Both the position numbers and the translations under genes were made by a program. Positions 14,087 to 30,507 of a stretch of DNA of 64,000 bases are shown one piece after another; within the stretch, counting starts at the first letter, position 1; the number at the start of each line of letters is the position of its first letter. This stretch comes from a virus. The DNA lies in IMG/VR virus record IMGVR_UViG_3300009375_000001, positions 26,357 through 90,356 of that record. One strand, given 5' to 3'. The notes below the pieces were generated by a model that worked only from the letters and a program-made list of their open reading frames with translations, did no database searches and was not told the DNA's origin.

Positions 14087-14698
14087 TTATCCTATTGTTC
14101 CAAATGGGTTCATTTCTTCAAAATTAAGAACGTCGTCATCTTCTAAATCCCAATCAGGGGTATTAAGTTCATTATTTAATGAAGTTTGAATATCTGCTTC
14201 AAGACCTTCAATTTCTGTATCTGTAACATCAATACTTTCGTGGTCATATTCCCAAGGTTTAAGATTAACTTGCCAAACGTGTTGTGGACCATCGGGAGTT
14301 GGGTAAAAAGAAGAATCGTTACCAACAAACGTTACTTCAAATAATGCTTCTAGGTCACCAAAATATAATAAATCACCTGCAATTGGTGTATCATCATCTG
14401 TAGAAACTGTTTCTTCTGCAAACTCTTTCTTTGTGAAAGATACCTTCATTTCATCGGTTACTTGTACTCCAAACTTTGAATAGAAGTCACCAATATCACC
14501 ATAATCTTGGTATTCATCTACAAGAATATTTAATGTCCATACAGTATCAAAATGTGAAGTTGGATCCTCACCAAAAATAGGATCTAAGTTTTTGTACTTA
14601 CGTGGTAGGTACTTGGCTTCAAACCCAATAACTTGTACTATTTCTTCCACCATTGATTTAATCATTGGTGATTTTGACATATTGTCGAACATACCCAT
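14087..14698 (-). CDS. gp14: Neck protein gp14
   Basis: The protein has 203 residues (T4 gp14 has 256). It lies between gp13 and gp15 with gaps of about 4 nt on each side. Segments such as YLPRKYKNLDPIFGEDPTSH and VDEYQDYGDIGDFYSKFGVQ fit the gp14 family. With gp13 it completes the neck after packaging and prepares the head for tail joining. The acidic C-terminal third is less conserved. Assignment is by conserved segments and strict synteny. Confidence 0.9.
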   Translation of the reverse strand: MGMFDNMSKSPMIKSMVEEIVQVIGFEAKYLPRKYKNLDPIFGEDPTSHFDTVWTLNILVDEYQDYGDIGDFYSKFGVQVTDEMKVSFTKKEFAEETVSTDDDTPIAGDLLYFGDLEALFEVTFVGNDSSFYPTPDGPQHVWQVNLKPWEYDHESIDVTDTEIEGLEADIQTSLNNELNTPDWDLEDDDVLNFEEMNPFGTIG

Positions 14699-14702
14699 TA
14701 TA

Positions 14703-15581
14703 TTAACCTACAAGAAAGTTAGTTGGTATTTCGTAATTCAATGAGAATTCTTCTTCTAATCTTTGAATTTCTTCATTTGCTTCATCAAATAACTGTTGAC
14801 CATTTACAACAATTCCACCAGGCAATGGCATACCATCAAATTGCTTCATATTAGAACCCCATTGCTTTTTAAGTAATGCAGTCACATATTTTTTAATCCA
14901 TTCGTCGTTATATACGTCAAGTGCGTATGATGTAGATTCATCTGGTTCAACTGCAACAAATGCCCTAACAATAATTCTACTACCATTGTACCATTTGCTT
15001 CCAGCAGTAGTACATTTAGATTCTGTGTCGTATGCTGTCCAAGTTTCAGAAGCACCTGTACAAGCAGTTTCGTCTGTGTAAGAAGTATCTGAACAAACAC
15101 CTTTAACATTACATGATGGACCTAGAATAGTTCCAGAATGAGAGTATAAACGATTATTTGCTTTATTGTAAGTGAATGTACGGTCTGGGTTGAAGTAATC
15201 AGAAATAAGATCTAAATGTTGCATAGTCATTTCAAAATATTGCATATTGACTTTAGTCATATCAAACATCTGATCCATCATAATTCTATAACGAACATCA
15301 TTCATCGCTTCAGAAGAATATGCACCAGGCTCATAAATACGTGTAACTGCAACAATACCATCATCTAATGTTAAGTATTGGTTTGCTTCATCTGTAGCAA
15401 CAAACCTAATTGTAATAAACTTTTCTTCAACACCATCGAAATGTCGTTCAACGAATAATTGAATAGCATCGTCAATACGGTCATATGCTTGAGTGTCGTC
15501 CACTTGTATTTCTACCTTTGGATAACCCAATCTACGATATGCGTATTCTTTTAATTCTGTTGCTGATTGTAACTTTGCCAT
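14703..15581 (-). CDS. gp13: Neck protein gp13 with an inserted Cys/Trp microdomain
   Basis: This 292-residue protein (T4 gp13 has 309) starts MAKLQSATELKEYAYRRLGY and continues with DRIDDAIQLFVERHFDGVEE, as gp13 homologues do. Between residues about 150 and 194 it holds a segment with five cysteines and two C...C...W units (CSDTSYTDETACTGASETW and then CTTAGSKW). The same kind of unit is common in the tail proteins of this window but is not expected in a neck protein. Upstream and downstream of the segment the gp13 pattern resumes (IIVRAFVAVEPDE, then KKYVTALLKKQWG). The gene heads the 13-14-15-16 block. Confidence 0.93.
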   Translation of the reverse strand: MAKLQSATELKEYAYRRLGYPKVEIQVDDTQAYDRIDDAIQLFVERHFDGVEEKFITIRFVATDEANQYLTLDDGIVAVTRIYEPGAYSSEAMNDVRYRIMMDQMFDMTKVNMQYFEMTMQHLDLISDYFNPDRTFTYNKANNRLYSHSGTILGPSCNVKGVCSDTSYTDETACTGASETWTAYDTESKCTTAGSKWYNGSRIIVRAFVAVEPDESTSYALDVYNDEWIKKYVTALLKKQWGSNMKQFDGMPLPGGIVVNGQQLFDEANEEIQRLEEEFSLNYEIPTNFLVG

Positions 15582-16268: not shown

Positions 16269-16286
16269 TAAAATGGATAGTTAGTG

Positions 16287-17531
16287 ATGAATGAAAAGAA
16301 AATTATAGTTATTGGTGATGTAATGGTGGACGAATACTGGAATGGCAGTTGCACACGGATATCACCAGAAGCACCTGTTCCAGTAGTGGACGATATATCG
16401 GTTTCTCATAGACTTGGTGGTGCAGCCAACGTTGCACTTGCCACAAAGGTATTTACCCCCGATACAAGGTTATATGGGTGTGTGGGGTATGATAAAGGCT
16501 CTATGATCCTAACACATAAATTAACAGAAAATGACGTTAAATATAACTTTAGATATTCTTATGAAAATAAGACTATTACTAAAATTAGAATTATGTCGGA
16601 CAAAAACCAATTAGTACGTATTGATCACGGTAATGTGGAATATCCACAAAATAACACAATAGATTATCAACCTGATGTTATTATCGTTTCTGACTATAAT
16701 AAAGGTACTATATGTGGTGAGTATTTAGACTATTTAATGGATTTTTCTTGTCCAGTTATTATTGACCCTAAAGGTACTGATTGGATAAAATACAAAGGTG
16801 CTTATTGCTTAACACCAAATAAGAAAGAGTTTGAAGAAGTGTATGGTGAATTTAGTATAGAATTAGCACGTGATGTGGTTTTTCTTTTAGACTTAAAGGG
16901 TATATTGGTTACCCTTGGTGCTGAGGGAATGGTATGGGTAGATAAGGATAATCATATTAAATTAAACTCTGAAGCAAAAGAAGTATATGATGTTACAGGA
17001 GCAGGTGATACTGTTATAGCAACGTTTGCTTCTTTCTTACACGAAGGTGTTGAAACTGCTATGAGAAAGGCAACCAAAGCGGCTGGTGTAGTAGTAGGTA
17101 AAGTTGGTACTGCTGTTCCGAAATATGAAGATGTTATTGAAAAGGTTGTGTTTACTAACGGTTGTTTCGACATTATACATAGTGGTCATATTGCCTTATT
17201 AAAGGAATCTGCTAAATTGGGAGATAGGTTAATTGTTGGTATTAACAGTGATAAGTCGGTAGAGCGTATTAAACGAAACCCTATTAACAATGAGGAAGAT
17301 AGAAAACTTATTTTAGAAGCAATTGATGGTGTCGATGAAGTTGTTATTTTTGATGACGACACACCAATTGAGTTGATTAAAAAAATCAAACCAAACGTGA
17401 TAGTGAAAGGTGGTGACTACACAGTTGAAACTGTTGTAGGTGCTGATATTGTAGATGAAGTTGTTATATTTCCAACGTTAGAAGGAAAGAGTACAACAAA
17501 TGTGATTAAGAGGATTAAAGATGTCGACTAG
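16287..17531 (+). CDS. hldE: HldE-like bifunctional heptose kinase/adenylyltransferase
   Basis: Two domains are clear. Residues 1 to about 285 are a PfkB-type sugar kinase with VIGDVMVDEYWNGSCTRISP (as in bacterial HldE), GGAANVA and the catalytic DVTGAGDT. Residues about 290-414 are a nucleotidyltransferase with FTNGCFDIIHSGHIALL and VKGGDYT. HldE phosphorylates D-glycero-beta-D-manno-heptose 7-phosphate and then adenylylates it to ADP-heptose. The total length is a little below E. coli HldE (477). GTG at 16284 directly precedes this ATG; the ATG is preferred because it gives the expected N-terminus. The cupin gene overlaps its end by 11 nt. It reads opposite to all neighbouring virion genes, as inserted accessory genes often do. 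Confidence 0.92.
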   Translation: MNEKKIIVIGDVMVDEYWNGSCTRISPEAPVPVVDDISVSHRLGGAANVALATKVFTPDTRLYGCVGYDKGSMILTHKLTENDVKYNFRYSYENKTITKIRIMSDKNQLVRIDHGNVEYPQNNTIDYQPDVIIVSDYNKGTICGEYLDYLMDFSCPVIIDPKGTDWIKYKGAYCLTPNKKEFEEVYGEFSIELARDVVFLLDLKGILVTLGAEGMVWVDKDNHIKLNSEAKEVYDVTGAGDTVIATFASFLHEGVETAMRKATKAAGVVVGKVGTAVPKYEDVIEKVVFTNGCFDIIHSGHIALLKESAKLGDRLIVGINSDKSVERIKRNPINNEEDRKLILEAIDGVDEVVIFDDDTPIELIKKIKPNVIVKGGDYTVETVVGADIVDEVVIFPTLEGKSTTNVIKRIKDVD

Positions 17532-17880
17532 AATTCAAAAGGGTTGGGGACACGAACTGATACATGAAAGTAATGAGCAATATTGTATGAAGGAACTGCA
17601 CTTCTACAAGAAAGGTCATAAATCATCAATGCATTTCCATAAAAATAAAACCGAAACGTGGGTCATTATGGAAGGGAAAATACAGATTGAATTTATGGAT
17701 ATGTCAGATTCTTCAACACACGTAACTATAATGGAAAAAGGTTATGTAATAACTATTCCACCTATGAAACCACATCAAGTAACTTGTTTAGAAGATAATA
17801 CGATAGTTATGGAATCATCTAGTAAAGACGAATCATCCGATAACTATCGTATTAGACCTGGCGATAGTCAGGTCATATGA
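17521..17880 (+). CDS. Single-domain cupin, sugar-modification type
   Basis: This 119-residue protein has cupin motif 1, HFHKNKTETWVIMEGKIQIE (metal-binding His, His and Glu), and motif 2, IPPMKPHQV. The opening KGWGHELIHESNEQYCMKEL resembles cupins related to mannose-6-phosphate isomerase/ManC C-terminal domains and lipopolysaccharide-sugar cupins. It starts 11 nt inside the end of hldE, so the two are co-translated. A role in isomerising or epimerising the heptose or a related sugar is likely by context; the exact reaction cannot be told. Its 3' end overlaps the convergent hldD gene by 8 bp. Confidence 0.75.
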   Translation: MSTRIQKGWGHELIHESNEQYCMKELHFYKKGHKSSMHFHKNKTETWVIMEGKIQIEFMDMSDSSTHVTIMEKGYVITIPPMKPHQVTCLEDNTIVMESSSKDESSDNYRIRPGDSQVI

Positions 17881-18739
17881 TTTGTTCATATGACGACATA
17901 TTTGCCTTGGTGTATTTTTGATAGTGTTGTTGCAGTTCATCTGGCATATTAATATATTCAATATCACTATCACTGACGCCAATTTCATCTTTTGCTAATT
18001 GAAGGAAAGATCTTGCTTCGCCAGTACCAATATTATATACACCACTTTTACATATTTCCATTAAATGTATTGTTTTATCAACTGCTTCGTCTATATGAAT
18101 AAAATCACGTTTATAATCATCAGAACCCTTGAATAATTTAATTTTACCAGTAGACACATATTGTTCTTTCATCCAAGCAGTTGGTGATTTCATACCAACT
18201 TTATGTGTTTCGAATTCACCATCAGAATAAACATTAAAATACCTAAGACCAATCATTTTACATTTCTTCATTAAAGGTCTTGCATATTTATCTGCCTGTA
18301 GTTTTGAAAAACCGTACATATTGTTTGGTTGGTAGTTGTCTTTTTCATCATGGAAATATTCTTCTTCACTTCCATAAACAGATGCCGATGATGCATATAA
18401 TAAATTAATTTTATGTTTAGCACATATATTCATTATATTGCAAGTAAATTGATAGTTGTTAGACATTAAGTATTTACCATCATTGCAAGTTGTTGATGAC
18501 TCAGCACCAAAATGGTATATTTCTGAAACCATGTCGTTTTCTGCTAATATTGATAAAATTTCAATAAAATTTTCTTTATCAATATAATCACTAATCTGAA
18601 GATCTTTAATATTATTAATTTTAGTTCCGTCTGTTAGGTCATCAACTAAAATAATGTTAGTCACCCCACTATCATTGAGTTTTTTAATAACCCTACTACC
18701 AATAAACCCTGCTCCACCTGTTACTATAATATTTTTCAT
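17873..18739 (-). CDS. hldD: HldD-like ADP-heptose 6-epimerase (short C-terminus)
   Basis: This is a 288-residue short-chain dehydrogenase-type epimerase. It has the NAD(P)-binding VTGGAGFIGS at the start, ASSASVYGS (catalytic Ser), YGFSKLQADKY (Tyr-x3-Lys) and FKGSDDYKRDFIHIDEAVD. These follow E. coli HldD closely. HldD converts ADP-D-glycero-D-manno-heptose to ADP-L-glycero-D-manno-heptose, the next step after HldE. E. coli HldD has 310 residues; this copy stops about 20 residues early, after YQKYTKANMSSYEQII, exactly where it runs into the convergent cupin gene. The catalytic core is intact. It overlaps the carbamoyltransferase by 4 nt. Confidence 0.92.
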   Translation of the reverse strand: MKNIIVTGGAGFIGSRVIKKLNDSGVTNIILVDDLTDGTKINNIKDLQISDYIDKENFIEILSILAENDMVSEIYHFGAESSTTCNDGKYLMSNNYQFTCNIMNICAKHKINLLYASSASVYGSEEEYFHDEKDNYQPNNMYGFSKLQADKYARPLMKKCKMIGLRYFNVYSDGEFETHKVGMKSPTAWMKEQYVSTGKIKLFKGSDDYKRDFIHIDEAVDKTIHLMEICKSGVYNIGTGEARSFLQLAKDEIGVSDSDIEYINMPDELQQHYQKYTKANMSSYEQII

Positions 18740-20517
18740 TTATTTTTAACCTCAATTATTAAATTATTATCTGGAATATAGAGATATTCAATATCACTAT
18801 TGGCAAGTGTACGAATGGCGTCATCAATAGTTTCAACAAGTGGTTCGCCACCAAGATTGAAAGATGTATTGAATAAAATTGGCACTCCAGTTTCTTTGTA
18901 GAAGTGGTCAATCATTTCATAGTAAACTGGATTTTGATGTTCTTTTACAGTCTGAATTCTACAAGTACCATCTACGTGAATGATTGCTGGAATTTGTTCT
19001 GCATATTCATCAGTTGAACAATTCATAGCATACATCATATGTGGTGACTCTTCAAGACCTCTCATATCAAACCACTCATGTGCGTGTTCGTGTAATATTG
19101 AACCTGCAAAAGGTCTAAAGTATTCTCTACGTTTAACTTTATTCACATAGTCTTTACCATCAAGTGTACGTGGATCGAATAGGATAGAACGGTTACCTAA
19201 AGCACGAGGACCATTTTCGCATCTATCTTGGAATAATGTAACAATATTACCTTTTAGAATTAACTTAACTGCATCAGTGGAGTACTGTTCATCAAACACA
19301 CCAGTCGCACCATATTTCTTAGCAATTTCAATAATTTCTTCAGTAGTATTCTTTTGTACAGGACCAAGATATAACGATTCTGCAAAATCTCTAACTTTAC
19401 TATCTTTATTAATAGAATGGTGTACCAACATGGCGGCTCCCATTGCTGTACCAGCATCATTAGAAATAGGTTCTACATAAATGTTAATGTCCTCATCTTT
19501 CAATTGTTCTAAGTACCAATAGTTTGCTACACAGTTAAGACCGTAACCACCAGAAATAACAACGTTCTTCTCTCCACTCATTTTAACTGCTTTACGGATT
19601 AAATCTAATACCATTTGTTGAGATTCAGTCTGTACTGCATATGCCATATCTCTACGGTTTTGTAGTAATGTTACGTCACCTGATATTTGTTCTTCACTAG
19701 AAGTTAAATACTTATACTTACCAAAGTTAACTAATGCACCATTCGGATATGTTGGAATAATTACATTTCTATCTGCCGTTTTCCACTCACCACCTGCATC
19801 TGTATAGATATTAGGGAATTTATCATTTGGTTTACCGTAAGGAAATAACCCCATTGTCTTTCCTGCTTCAATAGGTGACCAACCACAATATTGTGTAACT
19901 GCTTCATATGACTTAACAATACCTGCAGTATCATCAAGAATCAATTCATGTGTTCCTTCTTCACCTTCACGTTCACTAGAAACTTCTGGTAAATGAGCAC
20001 CTTGCCATGGACCTCTACCACCTTGGTGTTTATATAACGTTTTAAAATCTGCAGGATATTTACAATTAATAATACTTTCTAATTCCCAAGTCATTTCTTC
20101 ATTACCATTAATATTCATTGGAATGAATGTACCTGCTCCGTCTACAATAACTGATACTGCAGTTTCAAAACCAGAACGGTAAAATGCACAGGCAGAATGT
20201 GACTTATGGTGCCATTTGTGTAAATCTAATACTTGATTTTCTGGGTCATCAATTAAACGTAATTTACGTGCTAGACCAGTATAAACACTATCACCACTAA
20301 AATCAACTCTAGAATCATCTGGTTGTGTATGTGAAATTACAAGATAATCTAACTTATCTGTGTAGTCTAAAATCTTAACCATAGAAGCATATGGTCCACC
20401 ATCATATTTCTGTCTACTTAAACGCTCTTCCTCAATAGCAAAAACAACCTCTCCATCCTTTAATAGACATACACCACCGTTATGTCCTCTAGCAATACCT
20501 GCAATCCACTGACTCAT
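18736..20517 (-). CDS. NodU/TobZ-type O-carbamoyltransferase
   Basis: This 593-residue protein starts with the Kae1-like domain: GIARGHNGGVCLLKDGEVVF and EEERLSRQKYDGGP, then metal-binding histidines in HKWHHKSHSACAFYRSGFE and VDGAGTF. The C-terminal domain has CENGPRALGNRSILFDPR and REYFRPFAGSIL, diagnostic for this family. Such enzymes move a carbamoyl group from carbamoyl phosphate, through carbamoyl-AMP, onto a sugar hydroxyl. Placed between hldD and a glycosyltransferase, the likely substrate is a heptose residue. Bacterial LPS core heptoses are carbamoylated in some species, which is a precedent for the chemistry. Members are common in large marine phages. Confidence 0.9.
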   Translation of the reverse strand: MSQWIAGIARGHNGGVCLLKDGEVVFAIEEERLSRQKYDGGPYASMVKILDYTDKLDYLVISHTQPDDSRVDFSGDSVYTGLARKLRLIDDPENQVLDLHKWHHKSHSACAFYRSGFETAVSVIVDGAGTFIPMNINGNEEMTWELESIINCKYPADFKTLYKHQGGRGPWQGAHLPEVSSEREGEEGTHELILDDTAGIVKSYEAVTQYCGWSPIEAGKTMGLFPYGKPNDKFPNIYTDAGGEWKTADRNVIIPTYPNGALVNFGKYKYLTSSEEQISGDVTLLQNRRDMAYAVQTESQQMVLDLIRKAVKMSGEKNVVISGGYGLNCVANYWYLEQLKDEDINIYVEPISNDAGTAMGAAMLVHHSINKDSKVRDFAESLYLGPVQKNTTEEIIEIAKKYGATGVFDEQYSTDAVKLILKGNIVTLFQDRCENGPRALGNRSILFDPRTLDGKDYVNKVKRREYFRPFAGSILHEHAHEWFDMRGLEESPHMMYAMNCSTDEYAEQIPAIIHVDGTCRIQTVKEHQNPVYYEMIDHFYKETGVPILFNTSFNLGGEPLVETIDDAIRTLANSDIEYLYIPDNNLIIEVKNK

Positions 20518-20518
20518 A

Positions 20519-21580
20519 TTATAATTCTCCTAAAAGGTTCTTTGTATTAAATTTATATTCTGGTGTATTACTACCTGCAGGAATAGACCCACAACTACCA
20601 CCACACTCTTCTGTTGGTGTAAAAGAACCTTCAAACCTTTCACCTTTACCTAGAAACGAAACTACAGAATCAACTACAAGTTGCTCTTGTTCTTCGTCCA
20701 TCATCATTACTTCATCATTTCCACGATCACGTTCATCATCTATAGAAACTCTAATAGGGGAATAAACCCTTTTATCTTTACCAATATCTACAATATCAAA
20801 CCCATCAAAGTTTGGGTAACTAATATTTTCTGGGAATGTAGACCCTGTTACTACCGTTGCAGTTTTACCTAGAGATTTTGCGATATGTTGACCTACAGAG
20901 TCGCACCCTAAGAAATGGTCTGCAGAATTAATAATGGATGCCCATAATCTAATATCAGGTATTTGTGGGAATGCTACCATATTTTTCTCATCTGTAGATA
21001 CTGTTATTGGGTATTCGCTCATTACAATAACTAAATACTCTTTTCTTAGTTTCTCAATAATGTTAATAATATTTTGTAATTCAAAAGAGCGGCTGGATTG
21101 GTCTACTAAAAAATCACCCATTTTTGAAATAGAACGTCCAAATGGTTGAACTACTACTACCTTATTTTTCCCAATAGATGACTTCATCTCTTGTATTGTT
21201 TGGTGACCTTGAATTAATTCATTTTTATTTAGTTTTATAATTGGATCTGGTAAAACCCTTGGTTCGACTAACTCATTAATTATTATATCAAACGCTTGTG
21301 CTAAATTGCACTTCTGATTGAAATATTCATTAACCCTATATGGTTCAGGTGATACTATATCTTTATCTTTAAGGTGGTTTTCAAATAAACCTTTATGCCA
21401 TGATTCATAAGCACGTTTGTGTAGATTTGGATGTCCCCTATAGAAGTCCATACCTGCTTCACAAACAATAATAAAATCATCATCACCAGATTCTTCTGCA
21501 TATTTATTCAATGCTGGAATTGAACACAGAACACGTCCTGCACCACCGTTTATAAAAAACGCTTTAGAGCGATTGCTCAT
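20519..21580 (-). CDS. Family 9-like glycosyltransferase (heptosyltransferase-like)
   Basis: This 353-residue protein has the plan of a GT-B enzyme of the LPS heptosyltransferase family. The N-terminal FFINGGAGRVLCSIPALNKY resembles the GGIGD-P-- acceptor-domain motif. VVVVQPFGR opens the second domain. ADHFLGCDSVGQHIAKSLGK and the TVVTGS that follows resemble the family's nucleotide-sugar site. The C-terminal tail holds CGGSCG, which is unusual. It is the first gene of a three-gene operon with the carbamoyltransferase and hldD, driven by a consensus sigma-70 promoter. With ADP-heptose made by HldE and HldD, heptose transfer is the likely activity; the acceptor is unknown. Confidence 0.75.
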   Translation of the reverse strand: MSNRSKAFFINGGAGRVLCSIPALNKYAEESGDDDFIIVCEAGMDFYRGHPNLHKRAYESWHKGLFENHLKDKDIVSPEPYRVNEYFNQKCNLAQAFDIIINELVEPRVLPDPIIKLNKNELIQGHQTIQEMKSSIGKNKVVVVQPFGRSISKMGDFLVDQSSRSFELQNIINIIEKLRKEYLVIVMSEYPITVSTDEKNMVAFPQIPDIRLWASIINSADHFLGCDSVGQHIAKSLGKTATVVTGSTFPENISYPNFDGFDIVDIGKDKRVYSPIRVSIDDERDRGNDEVMMMDEEQEQLVVDSVVSFLGKGERFEGSFTPTEECGGSCGSIPAGSNTPEYKFNTKNLLGEL

Positions 21581-21662: not shown

Positions 21663-21670
21663 TATTTATA
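21663..21670 (-). promoter_or_regulatory. Late promoter box at the halogenase stop
   Basis: TATAAATA overlaps the halogenase stop codon and lies just upstream of the sigma-70 promoter, giving the sugar operon a possible second, late start. Confidence 0.55.
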
Positions 21671-23255
21671 CACCACTATAAATTGTACGTTTTAGGAATT
21701 CATAATGTGTAGGTAATGAATTGATATAATCTTTGTTTAATTCTATTTCTTCAGATATTAGTTGTTCAATTTCTTTAGACCTAGAATATGGAACATTCAT
21801 ATTATCTTCACCATAAAACATTTCTATACCCATTTTAGTTATTGGGTTATATCCAAATCCTGCCATGATAAAAGACATACCATTTTTTCTTGGTGTTTCC
21901 CCAGACCAATCTGAATATAGAGTTATCTTTTCAGGTACATAATCTATTAAACCTTTCCACTCGTCTGAAGAATCATCAGTATATTTTATATCTTCAGTTA
22001 CATATTTCCAATATGGTGTATCATCACGTTCTGACATAGCATAATGGGCTGCTATAAATGAAGTGAATTTTTGCATTCCAACTCTAATATTTCTATTAAA
22101 AATTTCTTTATCATAACCATTTACACCACAATTACGTCTTTGTAATGTTTGTATTAGTGCAAATATACTATTATGTGTCAACATTAAACCAGTTGCTTCT
22201 ATTGGTTCTATGAAACCGTTTGATAGACCAATAGCACATACGTTTTTAACCCAACTTCGTTCACGTATGCCTGGATTAATATCAACGTGCATTGCTTTAA
22301 TTGATTCTATTTCCTCTCTACTATGTTTAATATCCCTATCATTAATCAAATACTCTCTAAACTCATTTTCTGCTTCTTCTTCAGTTAAAAACTTAGAACT
22401 ATACACGTACCCTGTGCCTATCCTATCCCACAGTGGGGTATTCCATACCCAACCAGAACTTAATGTAGTTGCATTTGTTGAATGTTCAAGTTCTTCGTTT
22501 TTATTAACATAAGGTATTCTTATTGCAATTGCCTTATCATTAAGAAGTTTATCTGTAAATGAAATATAAGGTTCGTTTAATACCCCATCTAGTAGTAATG
22601 ATCTAAACCCAGTGCAATCTATAAACAAATCTGCAGTAACAGTATCACCACCAGATAGAATTAATTTATCCACATCGCCATCTTCATTTTGGGTTACTGA
22701 AATTACTGTATCTATTGTTTGTGTAACCCCTTTTGGAATACAGTAATATTTTTTCAAATAATCACCAAATAGACCTGCGTCCATATGATATGCTGTATCT
22801 TTATCAAAATTCCAACCACGTATTTTAAAATCTCTAGTTAATTTATTATTTCTAATCATTTGATCAGAACCAAGTGCAAATGATGTAAATTCATCTTTAT
22901 CTGCACCTATCAATGCCTTTTTAGTAAACCAATCTGCAGCTATATAATCATCAAAGAAATTAGATTCACCAAATGGATAACGTATTCTTGTACCTTTACC
23001 GTCCCAATTAGTGAAATCTATTGATGTTTTATATACGGCATTACACTTCTTCATCCAGTCGGAATCTTTAAGACCTAAGTCTTTTAAAAATATATTAATT
23101 GAATTAATGGTGGATTCACCAACACCTATGGTGGGGATATCTGTTGATTCAATTACTGTAATTTCTAAATCTGGGAAATTTTTCACTAAACTAGATGCAG
23201 TCATCCATCCGGCACTACCACCACCTACTATAACTACTTTTTTAATACTTTTCAT
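21666..23255 (-). CDS. Flavin-dependent halogenase (tryptophan halogenase family)
   Basis: The 529-residue protein has the FAD site GGGSAGWM at residues 11-18, the GVGESTI motif near residue 44, and a lysine at residue 76 (VYKTSIDF) that aligns with the catalytic Lys79 of PrnA. GWVWNTPL near residue 268 matches the family W-x-W-x-I-P motif, with Thr in place of Ile. The fold is complete, so it should be active with reduced FAD. A viral member, VirX1 from cyanophage Syn10, has been shown to halogenate (notably iodinate) small aromatic molecules. The natural substrate here is unknown. It is flanked by a terminator upstream, and the late promoter box at its stop serves the next operon. Confidence 0.9.
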   Translation of the reverse strand: MKSIKKVVIVGGGSAGWMTASSLVKNFPDLEITVIESTDIPTIGVGESTINSINIFLKDLGLKDSDWMKKCNAVYKTSIDFTNWDGKGTRIRYPFGESNFFDDYIAADWFTKKALIGADKDEFTSFALGSDQMIRNNKLTRDFKIRGWNFDKDTAYHMDAGLFGDYLKKYYCIPKGVTQTIDTVISVTQNEDGDVDKLILSGGDTVTADLFIDCTGFRSLLLDGVLNEPYISFTDKLLNDKAIAIRIPYVNKNEELEHSTNATTLSSGWVWNTPLWDRIGTGYVYSSKFLTEEEAENEFREYLINDRDIKHSREEIESIKAMHVDINPGIRERSWVKNVCAIGLSNGFIEPIEATGLMLTHNSIFALIQTLQRRNCGVNGYDKEIFNRNIRVGMQKFTSFIAAHYAMSERDDTPYWKYVTEDIKYTDDSSDEWKGLIDYVPEKITLYSDWSGETPRKNGMSFIMAGFGYNPITKMGIEMFYGEDNMNVPYSRSKEIEQLISEEIELNKDYINSLPTHYEFLKRTIYSGV

Positions 23256-23355: not shown

Positions 23356-24126
23356 TTAATTTACATTATTTGGTAATTGAGCGACCACTACATCATCATC
23401 GCCAGTTCTATCACTAATATTAATTACATCTACATCAGGATCTGCAAATACTGAAGCATCTGCTTCATCTGGTGCCTGTGGAATAACAATTAAATCTGCA
23501 GGTACACCGTCCCAATCGTTTGGAAGATCGCGTAATTGTTGTCTATAATCAATCCACTTTTGTTTTATACTATCTGGCATATCTTCAGATGTAGCTGCAT
23601 CTGATGCCTCTAAATCATCATTTCTAACACCTCTAATAAACTCCATATTCCAATTATCCCTACCCCATTCGTTGTTAGGGAAATCGTCACCACAACGACC
23701 AGTTTCATAAGTCAAGTCTGCCCACTCACTTCCGTTGTAACCTTCGGCAACTGAATTTTGATCATAAACTTCTGAAATGTGTGTTGGGTCTTTGATTACA
23801 TTATTTTTTTGATTTTCTGGACCTACTGCAACCTCATAAACTTTTGGTTTATCATAACCTACAGGACCAATTAAAGTACATCTAATACAATTTTCAACAG
23901 ATTCATCACAATCTAATACTAATTCGTAAAAATCTAGTGGTGTAGGTTGTTCACATAAGTTGTCCATATCTTGTACTTCCTTAACCATATGTGTTTCTTT
24001 ATCCATGAATAACATCAAATGGCTAGGACCAACGTATGTATGTGTTGACGTTTTACCTTCTGAATCGTCTGTACCATAACGTTCATTTGGAATTTTATAT
24101 GTAATTGTTTTTGTTAATTCTGACAT
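23356..24126 (-). CDS. Tail assembly chaperone-like protein, copy 2
   Basis: This 256-residue protein is a paralogue of the 245-residue protein at 25156-25893. Both share the N-terminal block TYKIPNERYGTDDSEGKTST and the C-terminal helix MPDSIKQKWIDYRQQLRDLP. A W-x2-YR-x-LR-LP helix is typical of phage tail assembly chaperone families (for example the PF16778 type). It immediately follows the adhesin-like gene at 24146-25126. That pairing suggests it folds or attaches that adhesin, like T4 gp38 or gp57A-type helpers; this is inference. A hairpin terminator follows 28 nt after its stop. Confidence 0.65.
   Translation of the reverse strand: MSELTKTITYKIPNERYGTDDSEGKTSTHTYVGPSHLMLFMDKETHMVKEVQDMDNLCEQPTPLDFYELVLDCDESVENCIRCTLIGPVGYDKPKVYEVAVGPENQKNNVIKDPTHISEVYDQNSVAEGYNGSEWADLTYETGRCGDDFPNNEWGRDNWNMEFIRGVRNDDLEASDAATSEDMPDSIKQKWIDYRQQLRDLPNDWDGVPADLIVIPQAPDEADASVFADPDVDVINISDRTGDDDVVVAQLPNNVN
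24043..24106 (-). repeat. 64-bp block identical to 25819-25882
   Basis: The block covers the TYKIPNERYGTDDSEGKTST start of both chaperone-like genes with no difference, while the following sequence is strongly diverged. Confidence 0.85.
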
Positions 24127-24145
24127 TTTCTATACTCCTAATATT

Positions 24146-25126
24146 CTATTGGTATGATACTTTAAGTAAACCACCAGCGCCAAATCCACCCCAACAACCT
24201 GATCCACCAGAAAAACCACCATGGGCACCACCACCGCCAGGGAAATATGCATGACCCCTACAACAACCCCTTCCTGTGGTTGTACAATGGTTAGTATCCT
24301 GACCTTGCGAACCTGAGCCAGAGAATGGACCAGTTGGACCACCACGTGTTGTTGATAAGTGAGAACAACATGAGTATCCTTTATTAATCATTCCTGGCGT
24401 ACCTGTAAATCCATAGTCTGCTCCGAAGAAGCCTGGAGTACAAGATTGGCATTGACCCCAACCACCAGATACCACATGACCGATTGTACATTGAGCACCA
24501 ATAGAACAATCATAACAAGAACTTAGCTTATCCCAAGCAGTCCAACCACCTTCTCCACCAGTAGCACAGAAGTTACTTAAACCTGGCCCAGTAGCGTATG
24601 AAGTACAACCAGTATGACAAGGTTGACAATGTCCACAACAGGCACATTGTGAAGTACCACCGGCACATAAAGTGTATGCCGATACACCAGCAGTAAAATC
24701 TACACCTTCTTCAAGTGTTTTTGAGGCATAGTTACCACCCCAACCACCAACACCAATGTCGTGGTCATAACCACCTGATCCGCCAGGACCACCACCACCT
24801 AAAACTTCAAATTTAATTGATTTGATACCTTCGGGTGCAGTCCAATGTAAACAACAACCACCATTGGTAACAGTCCAATGGTTAGTGTTATATAACATAA
24901 ATTCTTTATATGGTTTTGAACCACCACCAGCAGCAGCTAAAGCGTCAACACCTGCTTGAGTTGTGTCTTCAAGACATTGTACTTGACCAGTTTGAGTTGC
25001 TTCAATTTCTCCCTGTTTTGTACAAACATCGCGCAAAGTTTCAAAAGTCGTATTCGCTAGAAATTCTAACGTTTGGTCGACATCTTTCGCCATTTGGTTC
25101 ATTTTACCAAGTGTTAAAATATCCAT
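24146..25126 (-). CDS. Glycine/cysteine-rich adhesin-like tail protein, copy 2
   Basis: The protein has 326 residues. The first 65 form a helical attachment region (MDILTLGKMNQMAKDVDQTL) ending in AAAGGGS. A short beta domain (NTNHWTVTNGGCCLHWTAPE) follows, then a long Gly/Cys-rich part with runs such as VLGGGGPGGSGGYDHD, CACCGHCQPCHTGC and YFPGGGGAHGGFSGGSGCWG. By hand count it has 23 cysteines, as does its paralogue at 25908-26885. Polyglycine loops recall gp38-type receptor-binding adhesins, but the cysteine content is very unusual for a virion protein. It is followed by its chaperone-like partner. It probably recognises the host surface. Confidence 0.65.
   Translation of the reverse strand: MDILTLGKMNQMAKDVDQTLEFLANTTFETLRDVCTKQGEIEATQTGQVQCLEDTTQAGVDALAAAGGGSKPYKEFMLYNTNHWTVTNGGCCLHWTAPEGIKSIKFEVLGGGGPGGSGGYDHDIGVGGWGGNYASKTLEEGVDFTAGVSAYTLCAGGTSQCACCGHCQPCHTGCTSYATGPGLSNFCATGGEGGWTAWDKLSSCYDCSIGAQCTIGHVVSGGWGQCQSCTPGFFGADYGFTGTPGMINKGYSCCSHLSTTRGGPTGPFSGSGSQGQDTNHCTTTGRGCCRGHAYFPGGGGAHGGFSGGSGCWGGFGAGGLLKVSYQ
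24920..24999 (-). repeat. 80-bp block identical to 26679-26758
   Basis: The block covers the GQVQCLEDTTQAGVDALAAA hinge of both adhesin-like genes without a single difference, including synonymous sites, by direct reading. Confidence 0.85.
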
Positions 25127-25155
25127 TTGTTATTCCTTATTCTAAATAAATTATA

Positions 25156-25893
25156 TTATGTAATGTTATCTGGTAACTGTAGATCAATTGATTCTTGATC
25201 TGACTGTGTTCTATCTGCAATCCTAACAAGGTCTTCAATTAAATCCAATCCATCTGGTTGATCAGGTGCAGTAGGATAACCTATTAAATTGTTAGGGATA
25301 TTGGTAGTTAAAGATGGCAAGTCTCTTAATTGTTGTCTAAAGTCTAACCATTCTTGTTTTAAAGATTCTGGCATATCTTCAGCAATTTTACCATCTGTAG
25401 GGTGTAATAATGCATCCCTAATAGTTCTTACTGAAGCATCATCCCTATCTGCAGTATCACCAGTTCTATATTCTAATGGTTTCCATTCCATTGTATCTAA
25501 ATTAATACAATCATTATCCATTGCTTTAGGTAGTGAATAAACTTCCCTTAAATGCATTGGATCTGCAATTGCAGGATTTGGTAATTCTGCAACACCATTA
25601 TCAACTTCAAGTTGTCTTTGTGATGGAATACCACCATAAATTAGTGCAATTCTTAATGCATTTTCATCTGATTCTGTTGCATCAATTTCAACCACAGTGT
25701 AGTTTTTTGGTGTTGGTCTATCAGGTAATTCATCTTCTGCGAATGCATCTACAATTCTAGTCACATCTTCATTATTAATAACCCAACAAATTAATTTATC
25801 TGGTCCGTTATATGATACTGTTGACGTTTTACCTTCTGAATCGTCTGTACCATAACGTTCATTTGGAATTTTATATGTAATTAATTTTTCCAT
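25156..25893 (-). CDS. Tail assembly chaperone-like protein, copy 1
   Basis: This 245-residue paralogue of the 23356-24126 protein shares TYKIPNERYGTDDSEGKTST and the MPESLKQEWLDFRQQLRDLP helix. The middle differs strongly and lacks the cysteines of the other copy. A 64-bp stretch covering the N-terminal block is identical in the two genes at DNA level. It follows the adhesin-like gene at 25908-26885 by 14 nt. The function is inferred as for the other copy: assembly or attachment of the adjacent Gly/Cys-rich protein. Confidence 0.65.
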   Translation of the reverse strand: MEKLITYKIPNERYGTDDSEGKTSTVSYNGPDKLICWVINNEDVTRIVDAFAEDELPDRPTPKNYTVVEIDATESDENALRIALIYGGIPSQRQLEVDNGVAELPNPAIADPMHLREVYSLPKAMDNDCINLDTMEWKPLEYRTGDTADRDDASVRTIRDALLHPTDGKIAEDMPESLKQEWLDFRQQLRDLPSLTTNIPNNLIGYPTAPDQPDGLDLIEDLVRIADRTQSDQESIDLQLPDNIT

Positions 25894-25907
25894 TATTCTT
25901 TCTCCTA

Positions 25908-26885
25908 TTAAGCGTAAGTGACTCTAACTAAACCACCAGCGCCAAATCCACCCCAACAACCTGATCCAGAAGCAGTCGCATGACCTTGACCGCCACCGCC
26001 AGGGAAGGCAGAATGACCACCACGACAACCTGAACATTGTGTACAAGCATGACCACCAGAACCAGTTCCAGAAACTGCAAATGGGCCTGTAGGACCACCA
26101 GAGTAACCTCTTACCTCATTACAACAGTTGTAACCTCTTGTATATGATCCTGTAGTACCTGTAAATCCGTAATCTGCACCATAAAACTGTGTATGAATAG
26201 ACTGTGTAGACCAAGAACTATCATATGTTGATGCACAACATTGAATATGACCCATATGGCAATCATAACAATTTGACATCTTATCCCATGGTGTTGAACC
26301 ACCTAAACCACCTACGGCACAGAAGTTACTTAAACCTGGCCCAGTAGCGTATGAAGTACAACCCTGTCTACGTGACATACAACATTGGCAACAACATGAG
26401 CACTGTGAAGTACCAGCGGCACATAAAGTGTATGCTGATGAACCCGGCACGAAATGACCTTGTTCTGCATAAATGGTTTTGGATGCATATCCACCACCTT
26501 GTCCACCTACAGTAACTTCATGGTCACCACCAGAAGAACCGCCAGGACCACCACCACCTAAAACTTCAAATTTAATAGTTTTAACGTTCTCTGGAACAGT
26601 CCAATGTAAACAACAACCACCATTGGTAACAGACCAATGGTTAGTGTTATATAACATAAACTCATTCATACCCATACTACCACCACCAGCAGCAGCTAAA
26701 GCGTCAACACCTGCTTGAGTTGTGTCTTCAAGACATTGTACTTGACCAGTTTGAGTTGTTATGATGTCTGATTGTGTATCGCAAATGTCCTTTAGAGTTT
26801 CAAATGTAGAATTTGCTAGGAATTCCATCGTTTGGTCTAAGTCTTTTGCCATTTGGTTCATTTTACCAAGTGTTAAAATATCCAT
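25908..26885 (-). CDS. Glycine/cysteine-rich adhesin-like tail protein, copy 1
   Basis: This 325-residue paralogue of the 24146-25126 protein has the same layout: helical N-terminus (MDILTLGKMNQMAKDLDQTM), AAAGGGS hinge, beta segment with GGCCLHW, then a Gly/Cys-rich body. That body has a CSCCCQCCMSRRQGC cluster, CYDCHMGHIQCC, and the end GSGCWGGFGAGGLVRVTYA. It has 23 cysteines. N-terminal and framework parts are nearly identical between copies even in DNA, while loops differ. This is the pattern of receptor-binding proteins under diversifying selection. A late promoter box lies 37 nt upstream. It starts the four-gene duplicated module. Confidence 0.65.
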   Translation of the reverse strand: MDILTLGKMNQMAKDLDQTMEFLANSTFETLKDICDTQSDIITTQTGQVQCLEDTTQAGVDALAAAGGGSMGMNEFMLYNTNHWSVTNGGCCLHWTVPENVKTIKFEVLGGGGPGGSSGGDHEVTVGGQGGGYASKTIYAEQGHFVPGSSAYTLCAAGTSQCSCCCQCCMSRRQGCTSYATGPGLSNFCAVGGLGGSTPWDKMSNCYDCHMGHIQCCASTYDSSWSTQSIHTQFYGADYGFTGTTGSYTRGYNCCNEVRGYSGGPTGPFAVSGTGSGGHACTQCSGCRGGHSAFPGGGGQGHATASGSGCWGGFGAGGLVRVTYA

Positions 26886-26934: not shown

Positions 26935-29900
26935 TTATACGTCCCAAACATCTTTCAATGTAATAACACCTTTCATGTTGTTTGTAGAACCGTTAAACCT
27001 AGAAGATTCATACACTAACGAATCTGGTGTACCTTTCTTCCATGATTGTGTAGTAAATTCCCAAGAGTCATTTAATGAGTGACCTTGGTATGATTGCCAT
27101 TGTACTAAAATACCGTTCTTAAAGTTTGTACCTGCAGAATTGTTAGCAGAGAATGGTGAATCATCAGTATTACCTTCTGGTCCAAATAATGCATAATCTG
27201 TATCGGCAGCATTAATAGAACCACCTGTATATGTAACAGGTCCAGCAACAATAATTACTGGTGTTTTGTATGCACTGCCTGGATTATCAATTTGTACGTT
27301 TGAAACATTACCAGCACCACCTAATGAAGCAACACCCGATGCACCATAACCAGTAGGCTCAGGATGAGCGTCTACTACAATAACACGTGTTTGTCCGTTA
27401 ATATAATCATGCCAATCTTCAACGATTGTAACTGCACCAATACCATTATTAAGACCAACAGTTCCTTCAAAACCACCACCAACAGTATTAGTAGAATCTG
27501 TTCCTACAGTTCCTGAAGGGTCTGTTACTAGAACTAAAGGTTCGTCATAATCTGCACCACGTGAAGTAAAGTTAATATCACTAACCACATTGTTGATTCC
27601 TGTACTTAATATAGCACCAGAACCAGTTCCTTGAGGGTCATTGATAATAAGTTCTATATCTACATAGTCACTACCTGCACGGTTTACAGAAACTTCTGTA
27701 ATAGCACCTTGTGGTACTTCAGCAGTCCAAGTATTACCAGTCGTTGTACAAGTAGGTTCGTCAGTAACCAATGCATCAGAACAGAAGGCAGGAATTGTAA
27801 CTAAAGAAATAGTTGCTGTTGCACTCGCACCAGAACCATATACACGATCAATCTCAACACCCAAATCATCGTAAATTGGTGTTCCAGTTGGGTCGAAAAT
27901 AATAATTTCTGTATCTAATGAATAGCCAGAACCAATACTGTCAACTGTAATTGTATCAATAGAACGGTTTGTTACTACATCTGCATATGCACCCTCGCCA
28001 GGACCAGAAACGTCGATTGGTTTAACTGTGTCAGTGGCAACATACCCTTTGCCTGGACGGTCAACTGCGATGTCAATAATATTACCAGAAGCATTTACCG
28101 TAGCAATACCACGCATACCACCACCAGTAGAAGTTACCATATCTACAAATACTGTATTTTCACGAACCCATAGAGTTGCACCACCACCAGTCTGTGTATC
28201 TGTAATTTTATATTCTTTTGTTAATTCTGTGTCATCTACAATAGTGTAACTAAACACAGCATTCTGTGGAATATCACCAGAATCAAATGCACCATCTTCA
28301 TTAGTAACTGTATGAGCACCTATATCTAAGTTAGTAAATTCAACAGTATCACCAACGTTAGCAGAAATAATTGAAGGTTGAAATGCATTATTTTGAATAG
28401 CAACTGAAACTGTCTTAGGTGTTGTATCTGTATAACCAGTACCTTGATTAGTTAATGAAATAGAATCAATACCACCGTCTGCATATGATACTTGAATTGC
28501 ACCAGAAGTAGTTTCGTTACCACCAGTAATAGAAACTATATCTGTTACTAAATAACCAGAACCACCGTTTGTAACAACAACTTTATCTAATTCATTAGTT
28601 TCTGTAAGTAATACATGAGCAACTGCGTTACCACCAAGACCAGCACTGAAATCAACTGTAATAGAAGGGTTAATTTGATATGAATCTGCAACACTACCGT
28701 GATCATGGGCACCAACTTGTGAATCAAATACAAAATTCTCAGTAAATGAATTCCATGAAATTGTAATATCGTGTGAATGACCACCCTCTACTGTAGTAGA
28801 AACTACTGTAGTACCAGACTTAATAGTATTAATTTCTGCTTGTGAAAGTTGTAAGTTATGTGTGTGTCCGTTACCACCGTCTGGTACAACAACGTTCCAG
28901 AAACCCTGATACCCAGCACCACCACCAACTACCTTAATAGAATCAACCATTCCATTTCTTAACGTGAATGTCGCTTCTGCTTTAGTTTCTGTAGAACCTG
29001 TAACGTCAACAGCACCCAAATCAAATGCTCTAGCGAATGTGTTTTCTGAATATTTAGAACCACCATTAGTAATATTTACATCAGAAACACCATCGTCATA
29101 AACTGCATTTAAAATTGCACCAGTACCTAATGTTTTATTTGCGTCAATAGTATAACCGTAAGTATCAACAACACCAGAATCATCTGTAATAGAAACTTTA
29201 TATGTAAGACCATCAGAAAGGTCTGTATCATAAGACTCGCCAACAATATCATACTCGTAAGTTCTACTGAAGTCGTCTAATAATGATACAGATGCATTTG
29301 AATAGTTCTCACATTTGGTTGGATCATCAAAATCACTACCGTCTGAATCGATACCAGATGCACCGTCTGATACAACAACACCCCAACCTGTCACAGAAGA
29401 AAGACCATCATGACAGTAAGAAGAATGTGGTGTAAACATAACTGTTTCATAATCCTCTGCATATTGACCAGAAATACCATCGTTGTAAATAGTACCATCT
29501 AGGTTAGAAACTTTAACCATATCACCAGCGTCAATACCATCAAATAATAATGCATTAGAGTTACCACGACGAATAATTAATTCTGGGTTATCTGTATCTG
29601 CAATTGATGTATTATTCAAAATAGTTAGATCAACACCTGGCGCACCGTCTGTCTCATGAGCAGTAGCTCTAAAAGATTCAATACCAGTCTCTGAAACTGA
29701 TTTAAATATACTATATGCCTTAACCTTTTCAACTGAAGTAGAACCAGTTCCTAATTCTTTATCCAATTTAAGATGCTGAACAAATGGACGTGGTTCACCG
29801 TCAATTTGCATAGACTCACCAAAAGATATAATATTACCTGACTTATCGTAAGCAATGTGATGGGTTTTATTAGCACCTTCTTCTGCAAATGCGATTTGAC

Positions 29901-30507
29901 CATCTTTAGTATATTTGTAGTCTGCAAACCCAATCTCACGTGTCATTGTTAGATCTGACATCAATAAATTCGTTTGATGGATAGAGTAACCTGAATCGGC
30001 AGCACCAGAAGTGTACTGTGAAAGTTGAAGAATCATATCATCAATTGCCTGTTGGATAATTGCATCTTGATTCTGTACGTGGATAGTATAGTCTGATTGT
30101 AACTGCGTCATTTGAGTAGTTACATTTGTTTCTAATAAGTTAGAAGCAGTTGATAATGTAGTACCGGCATCGTTTGCCCAAGGAACAAATACAGTATTAA
30201 TAAAACCAGCAACTTCATCGTTCATGTAAGTTTCTACAGCATTCATAGCAGTATTTGTTCTTACGACAACTTCATCTTTAAACGTATTTTGTTGGTTTTC
30301 TAATGGGGTAGTTACATTTGAATTTAACCAAGCCTTCATGTTGCCCGCCATAGCGTTCAACTTAGTTGGAATCATCACTGCAGGGGTGTTAGTATAAATT
30401 TCTACTTCTTCAACGAACTCTGTAATATCAATACCAGTAAAGGTGATATCTGGAATATCGTTAAATTGGTCAACTTGCGTTGATATGGTTGATAGTGTTA
30501 CAGACAT
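26935..30507 (-). CDS. Long tail/fibre protein with Gly-Tyr beta repeats
   Basis: This is a 1190-residue virion-type protein. Residues 1-160 are helical and Thr/Asn-rich (attachment or trimer stem). Residues about 545-606 hold His-x-His units (NGHTHNLQLSQAEINTIKSG, GGHSHDITISW, GAHDHGS). Residues about 705-770 resemble a cupredoxin (VGDTVEFTNLDIGAHTVTNE) but lack the late Cys/His/Met ligands. From about residue 480 on, at least nine units of the type VTNGGSGY or LTNQGTGY recur every 50-100 residues. A Cys/Trp unit (CSDALVTDEPTCTTTGNTW) lies near residues 907-930. Two tandem late boxes lie upstream. It is probably a tail fibre or baseplate-attached fibre; no enzyme site is seen. Confidence 0.75.
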   Translation of the reverse strand: MSVTLSTISTQVDQFNDIPDITFTGIDITEFVEEVEIYTNTPAVMIPTKLNAMAGNMKAWLNSNVTTPLENQQNTFKDEVVVRTNTAMNAVETYMNDEVAGFINTVFVPWANDAGTTLSTASNLLETNVTTQMTQLQSDYTIHVQNQDAIIQQAIDDMILQLSQYTSGAADSGYSIHQTNLLMSDLTMTREIGFADYKYTKDGQIAFAEEGANKTHHIAYDKSGNIISFGESMQIDGEPRPFVQHLKLDKELGTGSTSVEKVKAYSIFKSVSETGIESFRATAHETDGAPGVDLTILNNTSIADTDNPELIIRRGNSNALLFDGIDAGDMVKVSNLDGTIYNDGISGQYAEDYETVMFTPHSSYCHDGLSSVTGWGVVVSDGASGIDSDGSDFDDPTKCENYSNASVSLLDDFSRTYEYDIVGESYDTDLSDGLTYKVSITDDSGVVDTYGYTIDANKTLGTGAILNAVYDDGVSDVNITNGGSKYSENTFARAFDLGAVDVTGSTETKAEATFTLRNGMVDSIKVVGGGAGYQGFWNVVVPDGGNGHTHNLQLSQAEINTIKSGTTVVSTTVEGGHSHDITISWNSFTENFVFDSQVGAHDHGSVADSYQINPSITVDFSAGLGGNAVAHVLLTETNELDKVVVTNGGSGYLVTDIVSITGGNETTSGAIQVSYADGGIDSISLTNQGTGYTDTTPKTVSVAIQNNAFQPSIISANVGDTVEFTNLDIGAHTVTNEDGAFDSGDIPQNAVFSYTIVDDTELTKEYKITDTQTGGGATLWVRENTVFVDMVTSTGGGMRGIATVNASGNIIDIAVDRPGKGYVATDTVKPIDVSGPGEGAYADVVTNRSIDTITVDSIGSGYSLDTEIIIFDPTGTPIYDDLGVEIDRVYGSGASATATISLVTIPAFCSDALVTDEPTCTTTGNTWTAEVPQGAITEVSVNRAGSDYVDIELIINDPQGTGSGAILSTGINNVVSDINFTSRGADYDEPLVLVTDPSGTVGTDSTNTVGGGFEGTVGLNNGIGAVTIVEDWHDYINGQTRVIVVDAHPEPTGYGASGVASLGGAGNVSNVQIDNPGSAYKTPVIIVAGPVTYTGGSINAADTDYALFGPEGNTDDSPFSANNSAGTNFKNGILVQWQSYQGHSLNDSWEFTTQSWKKGTPDSLVYESSRFNGSTNNMKGVITLKDVWDV

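Follow-up and report, generated by a model that had tools for sequence, protein, structure and literature searches.

Two cysteine-rich adhesin-chaperone modules as candidate receptor-binding cassettes in a marine T4-like phage

The DNA analysed here, termed the window, is a stretch of 64,000 nucleotides corresponding to bases 26357-90356 of the virus record IMGVR_UViG_3300009375_000001 (record total 90,356 bases). It encodes two glycine- and cysteine-rich proteins, A1 and A2, each followed by a smaller protein, C1 and C2, in the transcription order A1-C1-A2-C2, with all four genes on the minus strand. The A proteins are best read as a variant of the Gly-rich phage fibre or adhesin that is hypercysteine in composition, organised in cassettes and equipped with a dedicated chaperone, and we place at roughly three in four the probability that both modules, A1-C1 and A2-C2, serve as receptor-binding cassettes and form part of the host-recognition cluster of a marine T4-like myophage. 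We infer this function from the fold, the gene order and the co-inheritance of tip and chaperone. Host recognition and host-range change in marine T4-like phages are largely unexplained, and the A genes provide concrete candidate receptor-binding tips that cover an abundant phage group as well as cultured cyanophages.

Composition and fold of the A proteins and their chaperones

Cysteine accounts for 7.1% of the residues of both A1 and A2 (23 each), compared with a mean of 0.76% in the neighbouring proteins of the window, and the probability of at least 23 cysteines in 325 residues at the background of window proteins is ~2e-15. The two proteins are 66% identical and contain the motifs TSQCxCC, SNFCA, CYDC and GSGCWGG. 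A first-pass annotation of this DNA had described two tandem Gly-rich copies with 23 cysteines each, and its coordinates and counts are exact. The conserved 23-cysteine framework that it proposed holds in part: the motifs that it quoted are present, but only 18 cysteines occupy aligned A1/A2 columns and five are private to each copy. Likewise, the cysteine density that it called extraordinary is so against the rest of the genome but not within the family. Complete Gly-rich family members contain 21-36 cysteines each, except one replaced cassette (L087), and 194 distinct S-SSM7-type and related proteins contain 24-36 (median 10.4% of residues). Given this wide cysteine richness among relatives, the density is a family trait rather than a quirk of the window phage.

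A1 matches the family PF21722, Gly_rich_2 (E 5.5e-7, 30.2 bits), above the curated cut-off of 24.3, and A2 matches it below that cut-off (E 6e-4, 20.3 bits). Both proteins match phrog_4205 (A1, E 4e-37; A2, E 6e-32), the profile of which is found in the tip domain of all 22 aligned members (best E 1.7e-45). Sequence searches of solved structures with A1, single or as a profile, yielded nothing usable, and the fold search alone was informative. An AlphaFold2 (AF2) model of the A1 monomer, built from 22 family members, has a predicted local distance difference test score (pLDDT) of 68 and is composed of a helix, residues 3-65, and a β domain, with a β/Gly-rich tip at ~74-325. The top fold match of this model is gp24 of phage Pam3 (Foldseek E 4.9e-7; VIA Z 17.7, root-mean-square deviation 3.9 Å, 219 residues aligned), with the Bxb1 tail tip (Z 13.2) and the Gly-rich domain of ALK (Z ~8) as lower-ranked fold families. 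Pam3 gp24 is a trimeric fibre composed of a docking helix, a tumour necrosis factor (TNF)-like domain and a Gly-rich distal domain (PMC9608196). Both hallmarks of this architecture appear in the A1 model: a TNF-like β sandwich that continues into a Gly-rich distal domain, and a long N-terminal helix (3-65) that, in the monomer model, would be suited to docking or trimerisation. The modelled fold thus supports the earlier proposal of a receptor-binding-type fibre or adhesin. Pam3 gp24 itself matches Gly_rich_2 slightly below the cut-off (E 5e-5), and the kinship of the A proteins with gp24 rests on the fold and this shared Pfam domain, as the profile comparison by itself is not significant.

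The proposal that the partner genes encode chaperones is supported by matches of C1 (E 1.2e-8, 35.1 bits) and C2 (E 5.2e-9, 36.3 bits) to PF16778, Phage_tail_APC, above its cut-off of 26.6. Both also match phrog_9740 (C1, E 2e-24; C2, E 7e-23). The AF2 model of C1 (pLDDT 93) comprises an N-terminal β part and C-terminal helices, a domain order that is the same as in gp25, the chaperone that folds Pam3 gp24 and is not found in virions (PMC9608196). No match to the whole of C1 emerged from the fold search; the C-terminal domain matches the solved structure 2kz6 (E 1e-8; fold Z 6.6). A profile comparison of the C proteins with gp25 is not significant and gp25 has no PF16778 match, such that the likeness is one of domain order only.

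Each A protein would thus be a small fibre or fibre tip, presumably trimeric, with an N-terminal helix that docks it to the tail, perhaps on the 1190-residue structural protein encoded directly upstream of A1 or on the long fibre. The TNF-like/Gly-rich domain, resembling that of Pam3 gp24, would present distal loops that touch the host surface. Each C protein would serve its own A protein as a dedicated chaperone for folding and trimerisation, and would probably be released afterwards.

Relatives and the exchange of tips, anchors and chaperones

IMG/VR contigs contain dozens of relatives of the module, including 45 complete two-module loci (24 non-redundant, window included). The arrangement A-C-A-C is the usual state, and a single module is observed in L036, L037 and L041. 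In two other contigs both A genes are 100% identical to those of the window, as expected for members of the same virus population. The cultured cyanophages S-SSM7 (SSSM7_114-116) and Sf-FS3 (97-99) have the order A-A-A-C in the same slot, with 25-30 cysteines per A protein, and Cys-rich genes also occupy this slot in P-SSM2 (304/306, A-C-A) and S-CAM1 (A-A-A-C). The end of the Cys-rich gene SSSM7_116 encloses, in a different frame, the annotated gene SSSM7_117 (L046:6401-6730), which is unlikely to be a real gene. L087 has the anchor in the usual slot, fused to an unrelated, Cys-poor domain. The replaced cassette (L087:4001-6384) consists of this anchor-bearing unrelated protein of 167 residues, a 457-residue protein that begins with a Gly-rich stretch, and, in the chaperone position, a 162-residue gene that has no convincing Pfam match. 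Among cultured phages, neither the A anchor alone nor the 1190-residue protein finds a match; one-per-species bacterial and archaeal genomes contain no relative at the sensitivity used; and a search of one collection of papers found no description of Cys-rich cyanophage tail proteins.

Each A protein is divided into an anchor helix, its first ~65 residues, and a tip. The anchors of A1 and A2 are 78% identical over 50 residues, and in the clade of the window, anchors of the type DLDQTME..LKD are found in first copies and those of the type DVD.TLE..LRD in second copies. The tips are distributed differently: the nearest relatives of the window's A1 tip are second-position tips, in L011 and L007, and those of its A2 tip are first-position tips. 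Crossed tips with parallel anchors are observed between the window and L005, L008 and L011, and between L085 and the L022 group. Tip and chaperone distances correlate with r = 0.933, compared with at most 0.758 when partners were swapped within genomes 2000 times, and the correlation for the anchor is much lower (0.36). The correlation with the tip holds for each part of the chaperone taken separately (N-terminal, r 0.92; C-terminal, r 0.88). In an enlarged genome set, the tip/chaperone pairing agrees in 155/155 informative genome pairs, defined by a tip difference over 0.05, 25 crossed pairs included; an earlier swap test over every genome pair had given 55/78, because most genome pairs carry no signal. 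As far as sequence comparison can tell, each chaperone is therefore matched to its own adhesin, a point that the first-pass annotation had put forward for testing. In L018 and L013, the position-2 anchor is near-identical (97 then 92% at the nucleotide level) and identity falls to ~50-60% in the tip, which is a direct breakpoint. Within the clade of the window, tip and chaperone thus appear to move together as swappable cassettes and the anchors to stay with their position, and the analysis in this way separates the mobile pieces from the fixed piece.

The copies had initially been read as a duplication with loop divergence, with diversifying selection on the loops as a proposed check. Paralogous loops have indeed diverged beyond the framework (A1/A2 dN, the nonsynonymous rate, 0.59 versus 0.24; ratio to the synonymous rate, dN/dS, 0.77 in loops). 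That the window phage underwent a tandem duplication recently, with positive selection on the loops afterwards, is nonetheless highly improbable: the two-module state is conserved in the 45 loci and common to the 24 non-redundant genomes, and the A1 and A2 types each predate the phage, with their nearest kin in other genomes. The pooled dN/dS of orthologous loops (0.28) is close to that of the framework (0.25) and the anchor (0.23), indicative of purifying rather than diversifying selection.

The two tips of one genome are only 33-61% identical in every two-module genome examined, such that A1 and A2 are not identical copies in other isolates, and the nearest tip elsewhere is 88% identical (median). 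No genome carries two tips of the same type at 60, 65 or 70% identity (P 0.004-0.03 versus random pairing). At 60%, this corresponds to 0/24 genomes versus 4.4 expected (P 0.004), in a test that counts related genomes as independent. This pattern agrees with the suggestion of two unlike tips per phage and fits the maintenance of two specificities, with the proviso that related genomes are not independent. Recombination would swap tip and chaperone jointly between two position-fixed anchors, and through this joint exchange a phage would always show two unlike tips and could change partners as a unit.

Use of one tip at a time, with A1 and A2 competing for one dock or one of them kept in reserve as a recombination donor in a two-slot cassette reservoir, is a doubtful alternative. 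It draws on the near-identity of the two anchors and on codon usage: in much of the shared framework, A1 and A2 use the same codon at 80-90% of the sites where their amino acids agree, compared with 44-68% for A1 and its orthologue in L011, which suggests gene conversion between A1 and A2 (24146-26885). Both reading frames are intact, however, with purifying selection in relatives, and the position-specific anchor signatures in the clade of the window are expected if the docks differ. A role as accessory virion proteins that decorate or stiffen the fibre or capsid, and do not bind receptors, is improbable. phrog_4205, which has no assigned function in PHROGs, would leave room for such a role, but the genes are immediately preceded by long structural/fibre genes and followed by a tail-fibre-type chaperone, the A1 model has the fold of Pam3 gp24, an unrelated tip is substituted in L087, tips are swapped with their chaperones, and the locus coincides with the host recognition cluster of PMC7029224.

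Cysteines of the tip

The tip is made in the reducing cytoplasm, yet more than 20 cysteines are needed, which poses a puzzle. In the A1 model, 16/21 tip cysteines are located outside strands, in loops that, by analogy, would correspond to those running toward the distal tip in Pam3. Cysteine is the most conserved residue class within each tip type (pairwise identity 100% and 98%, versus 74-78% for all residue types but Cys and Gly), and six tip cysteines, 155, 164, 189, 209, 254 and 310, are invariant over 51 non-redundant sequences. The loop cysteines most likely form disulphides, a proposal that we hold at about even odds; these bonds would staple the loops after release of the virion into oxic seawater. 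Individual pairs are not discerned. Cysteine columns C168-C287 and C165-C206 covary with phi 1.0, but on a tree built without the Cys columns the perfect co-occurrence represents single events, and these candidate pairs were dropped. Paired gain or loss of cysteines on this tree is not significant, with no convincing pair after allowing for the number tested.

Alternatively, or in addition, the tip cysteines, together with histidines, may bind metal, being Zn- or Fe-loaded in a structural role or as a lure for siderophore receptors, similar to the iron-bearing T4 gp37 tip or the proposed 'Ferrojan horse' tail fibres. We consider this less probable than disulphides. The six invariant cysteines, the absence of an even-number bias in the cysteine counts, and the alternation of some cysteine columns with histidine (A1 C176, 39 Cys and 11 His; C91, 40 Cys and 6 His; n = 51) are consistent with it, and fibre domains that bind iron have been proposed for a marine phage (PMC11705849). 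Against it, the cysteine columns vary clade by clade, and scans of Pfam, PHROGs and NCBIfam matched no recognised metal-site family. Furthermore, the water around virions is oxic, which tends to favour the oxidation of free thiols.

Several observations weigh against the interpretation of A1-C1 and A2-C2 as paired receptor-binding cassettes with stapled tips. The comparison of A and gp24 sequence profiles is not significant, and the tip loops of the A1 model are poorly predicted (pLDDT 26-57). The fidelity of anchors to position is weaker outside the clade of the window. Avoidance of same-type tips is not significant at 50% identity (5/24 versus 7.9 expected, P 0.12), and the relatedness of the genomes bears on this test at every threshold. 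The parity of cysteine counts is unbiased (29 even/22 odd; 105 even/89 odd in the larger set) and single cysteine gains or losses are common on the tree, both of which weigh against complete intrachain pairing. The more elaborate proposal that marine T4-like phages permanently maintain a two-slot receptor system, with tip and cognate chaperone exchanged as one unit between fixed anchors, and that the tips form a new hypercysteine fibre class with loops held by a common cystine or metal core, is tentative, its odds being somewhat short of even.

Genomic setting and comparison with known systems

The window contains T4-like genes for the major head protein, portal, sheath, terminase, neck proteins and a baseplate wedge protein. 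The A-C-A-C region lies between the neck gene and the large structural genes (Table 1), and the same genomic place in marine T4-like phages has been named the host recognition cluster (PMC7029224). The major capsid protein is nearest to those of phages of Pelagibacter, of Methylophilales, and of cyanophages (~50%); psbA was not found in the 90-kb record, which may be incomplete. In all relatives with contigs that extend far enough, a homologue of the 1190-residue protein is encoded directly before the first gene with an anchor.

Table 1. Positions of the modules and neighbouring features in the window
Feature	Positions	Strand	Remarks
A1, adhesin / simplified tail-fibre protein, position 1	25908-26885	-	325 aa, 23 Cys, 61 Gly
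C1, chaperone cognate to A1	25156-25893	-	245 aa
A2, adhesin / simplified tail-fibre protein, position 2	24146-25126	-	326 aa, 23 Cys, 69 Gly
C2, chaperone cognate to A2	23356-24126	-	256 aa
Anchor-coding segment of A1, residues 1-70	26676-26885	-	position-1 signature DLDQTME...LKD
Anchor-coding segment of A2, residues 1-70	24917-25126	-	position-2 signature DVDQTLE...LRDVC
1190-aa structural protein, candidate docking partner of anchors	26935-30507	-	directly upstream of A1
Neck gene, head closure	14087-14698		
Flavin-dependent tryptophan halogenase homologue	21666-23255	-	PF04820; directly downstream of C2
Surface-sugar cluster	16284-20517 and 20519-21580		carbamoyltransferase, nucleotide-sugar epimerase, heptose kinase/adenylyltransferase, conserved phrog_8954 gene (cyanophage GC302)
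Motif C(S/T)Dx(S/T)YTD(E/Q)(T/S)(A/S)C...ETW	15039-15095 and 36822-36878	-	near-identical copies

Downstream of A-C-A-C, dozens of loci contain GC302 and the carbamoyltransferase gene, some with a tryptophan halogenase between, and the surface-sugar cluster invariably follows the adhesin slot. The halogenase is found in the matching place in some relatives (e.g. L002, L006, L016, L035 and L058) and is absent in others, and 2-oxoglutarate (2OG)-oxygenase-type genes fill the corresponding slot in S-SSM7 and Sf-FS3. These enzymes possibly modify tip proteins or surface glycans. The C...ETW motif is carried by a neck-type protein (14703-15581) and by a 2654-residue structural protein, which has looser Cys/TW repeats close to its C terminus.

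Among known systems, ALK/LTK shares its TNF-like plus Gly-rich topology with A1 but is a eukaryotic receptor, and the fold alone is common to the two. The gp38 adhesins of the S16/T2 type, which cap the long tail fibres of T-even phages, resemble the A proteins in having Gly-rich loops at the fibre tip and a gene that follows the long fibre gene; to our knowledge, they are not cysteine-rich. gp38, with its three-layer lattice and β-helix middle domain, has been described as a structural cousin of Pam3 gp24 (PMC9608196); S16 gp38 is not among the A1 fold matches listed, and the link between the A proteins and gp38 passes only through gp24.

The Pseudanabaena phage Pam3 (PDB 7ypx, 7yfw; PMC9608196) has in common with A1 the helix, TNF-like domain and Gly-rich distal domain, and its chaperone gene, gp25, lies directly downstream of the fibre gene, gp24, as each C follows its A. 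A 3:3 complex of fibre and chaperone also belongs to the Pam3 type. The main differences are that gp24, a single-copy protein, contains 1 Cys among 280 residues, whereas the marine A proteins have 21-36 cysteines and occur two or three per phage in T4-like genomes, and that gp25 lacks the PF16778 match and any profile similarity to C1 and C2. The phrog_4205 proteins of cyanophages, which carry the annotation "hypothetical", differ from those of the window in gene order (A-A-A-C or A-C-A), in their anchors, and in having up to 36 cysteines. They share with the window a homologous Cys/Gly-rich tip, an adjacent chaperone, and the same slot between the fibre gene and GC302/carbamoyltransferase, and it is plausible that the A proteins give phrog_4205 a function.

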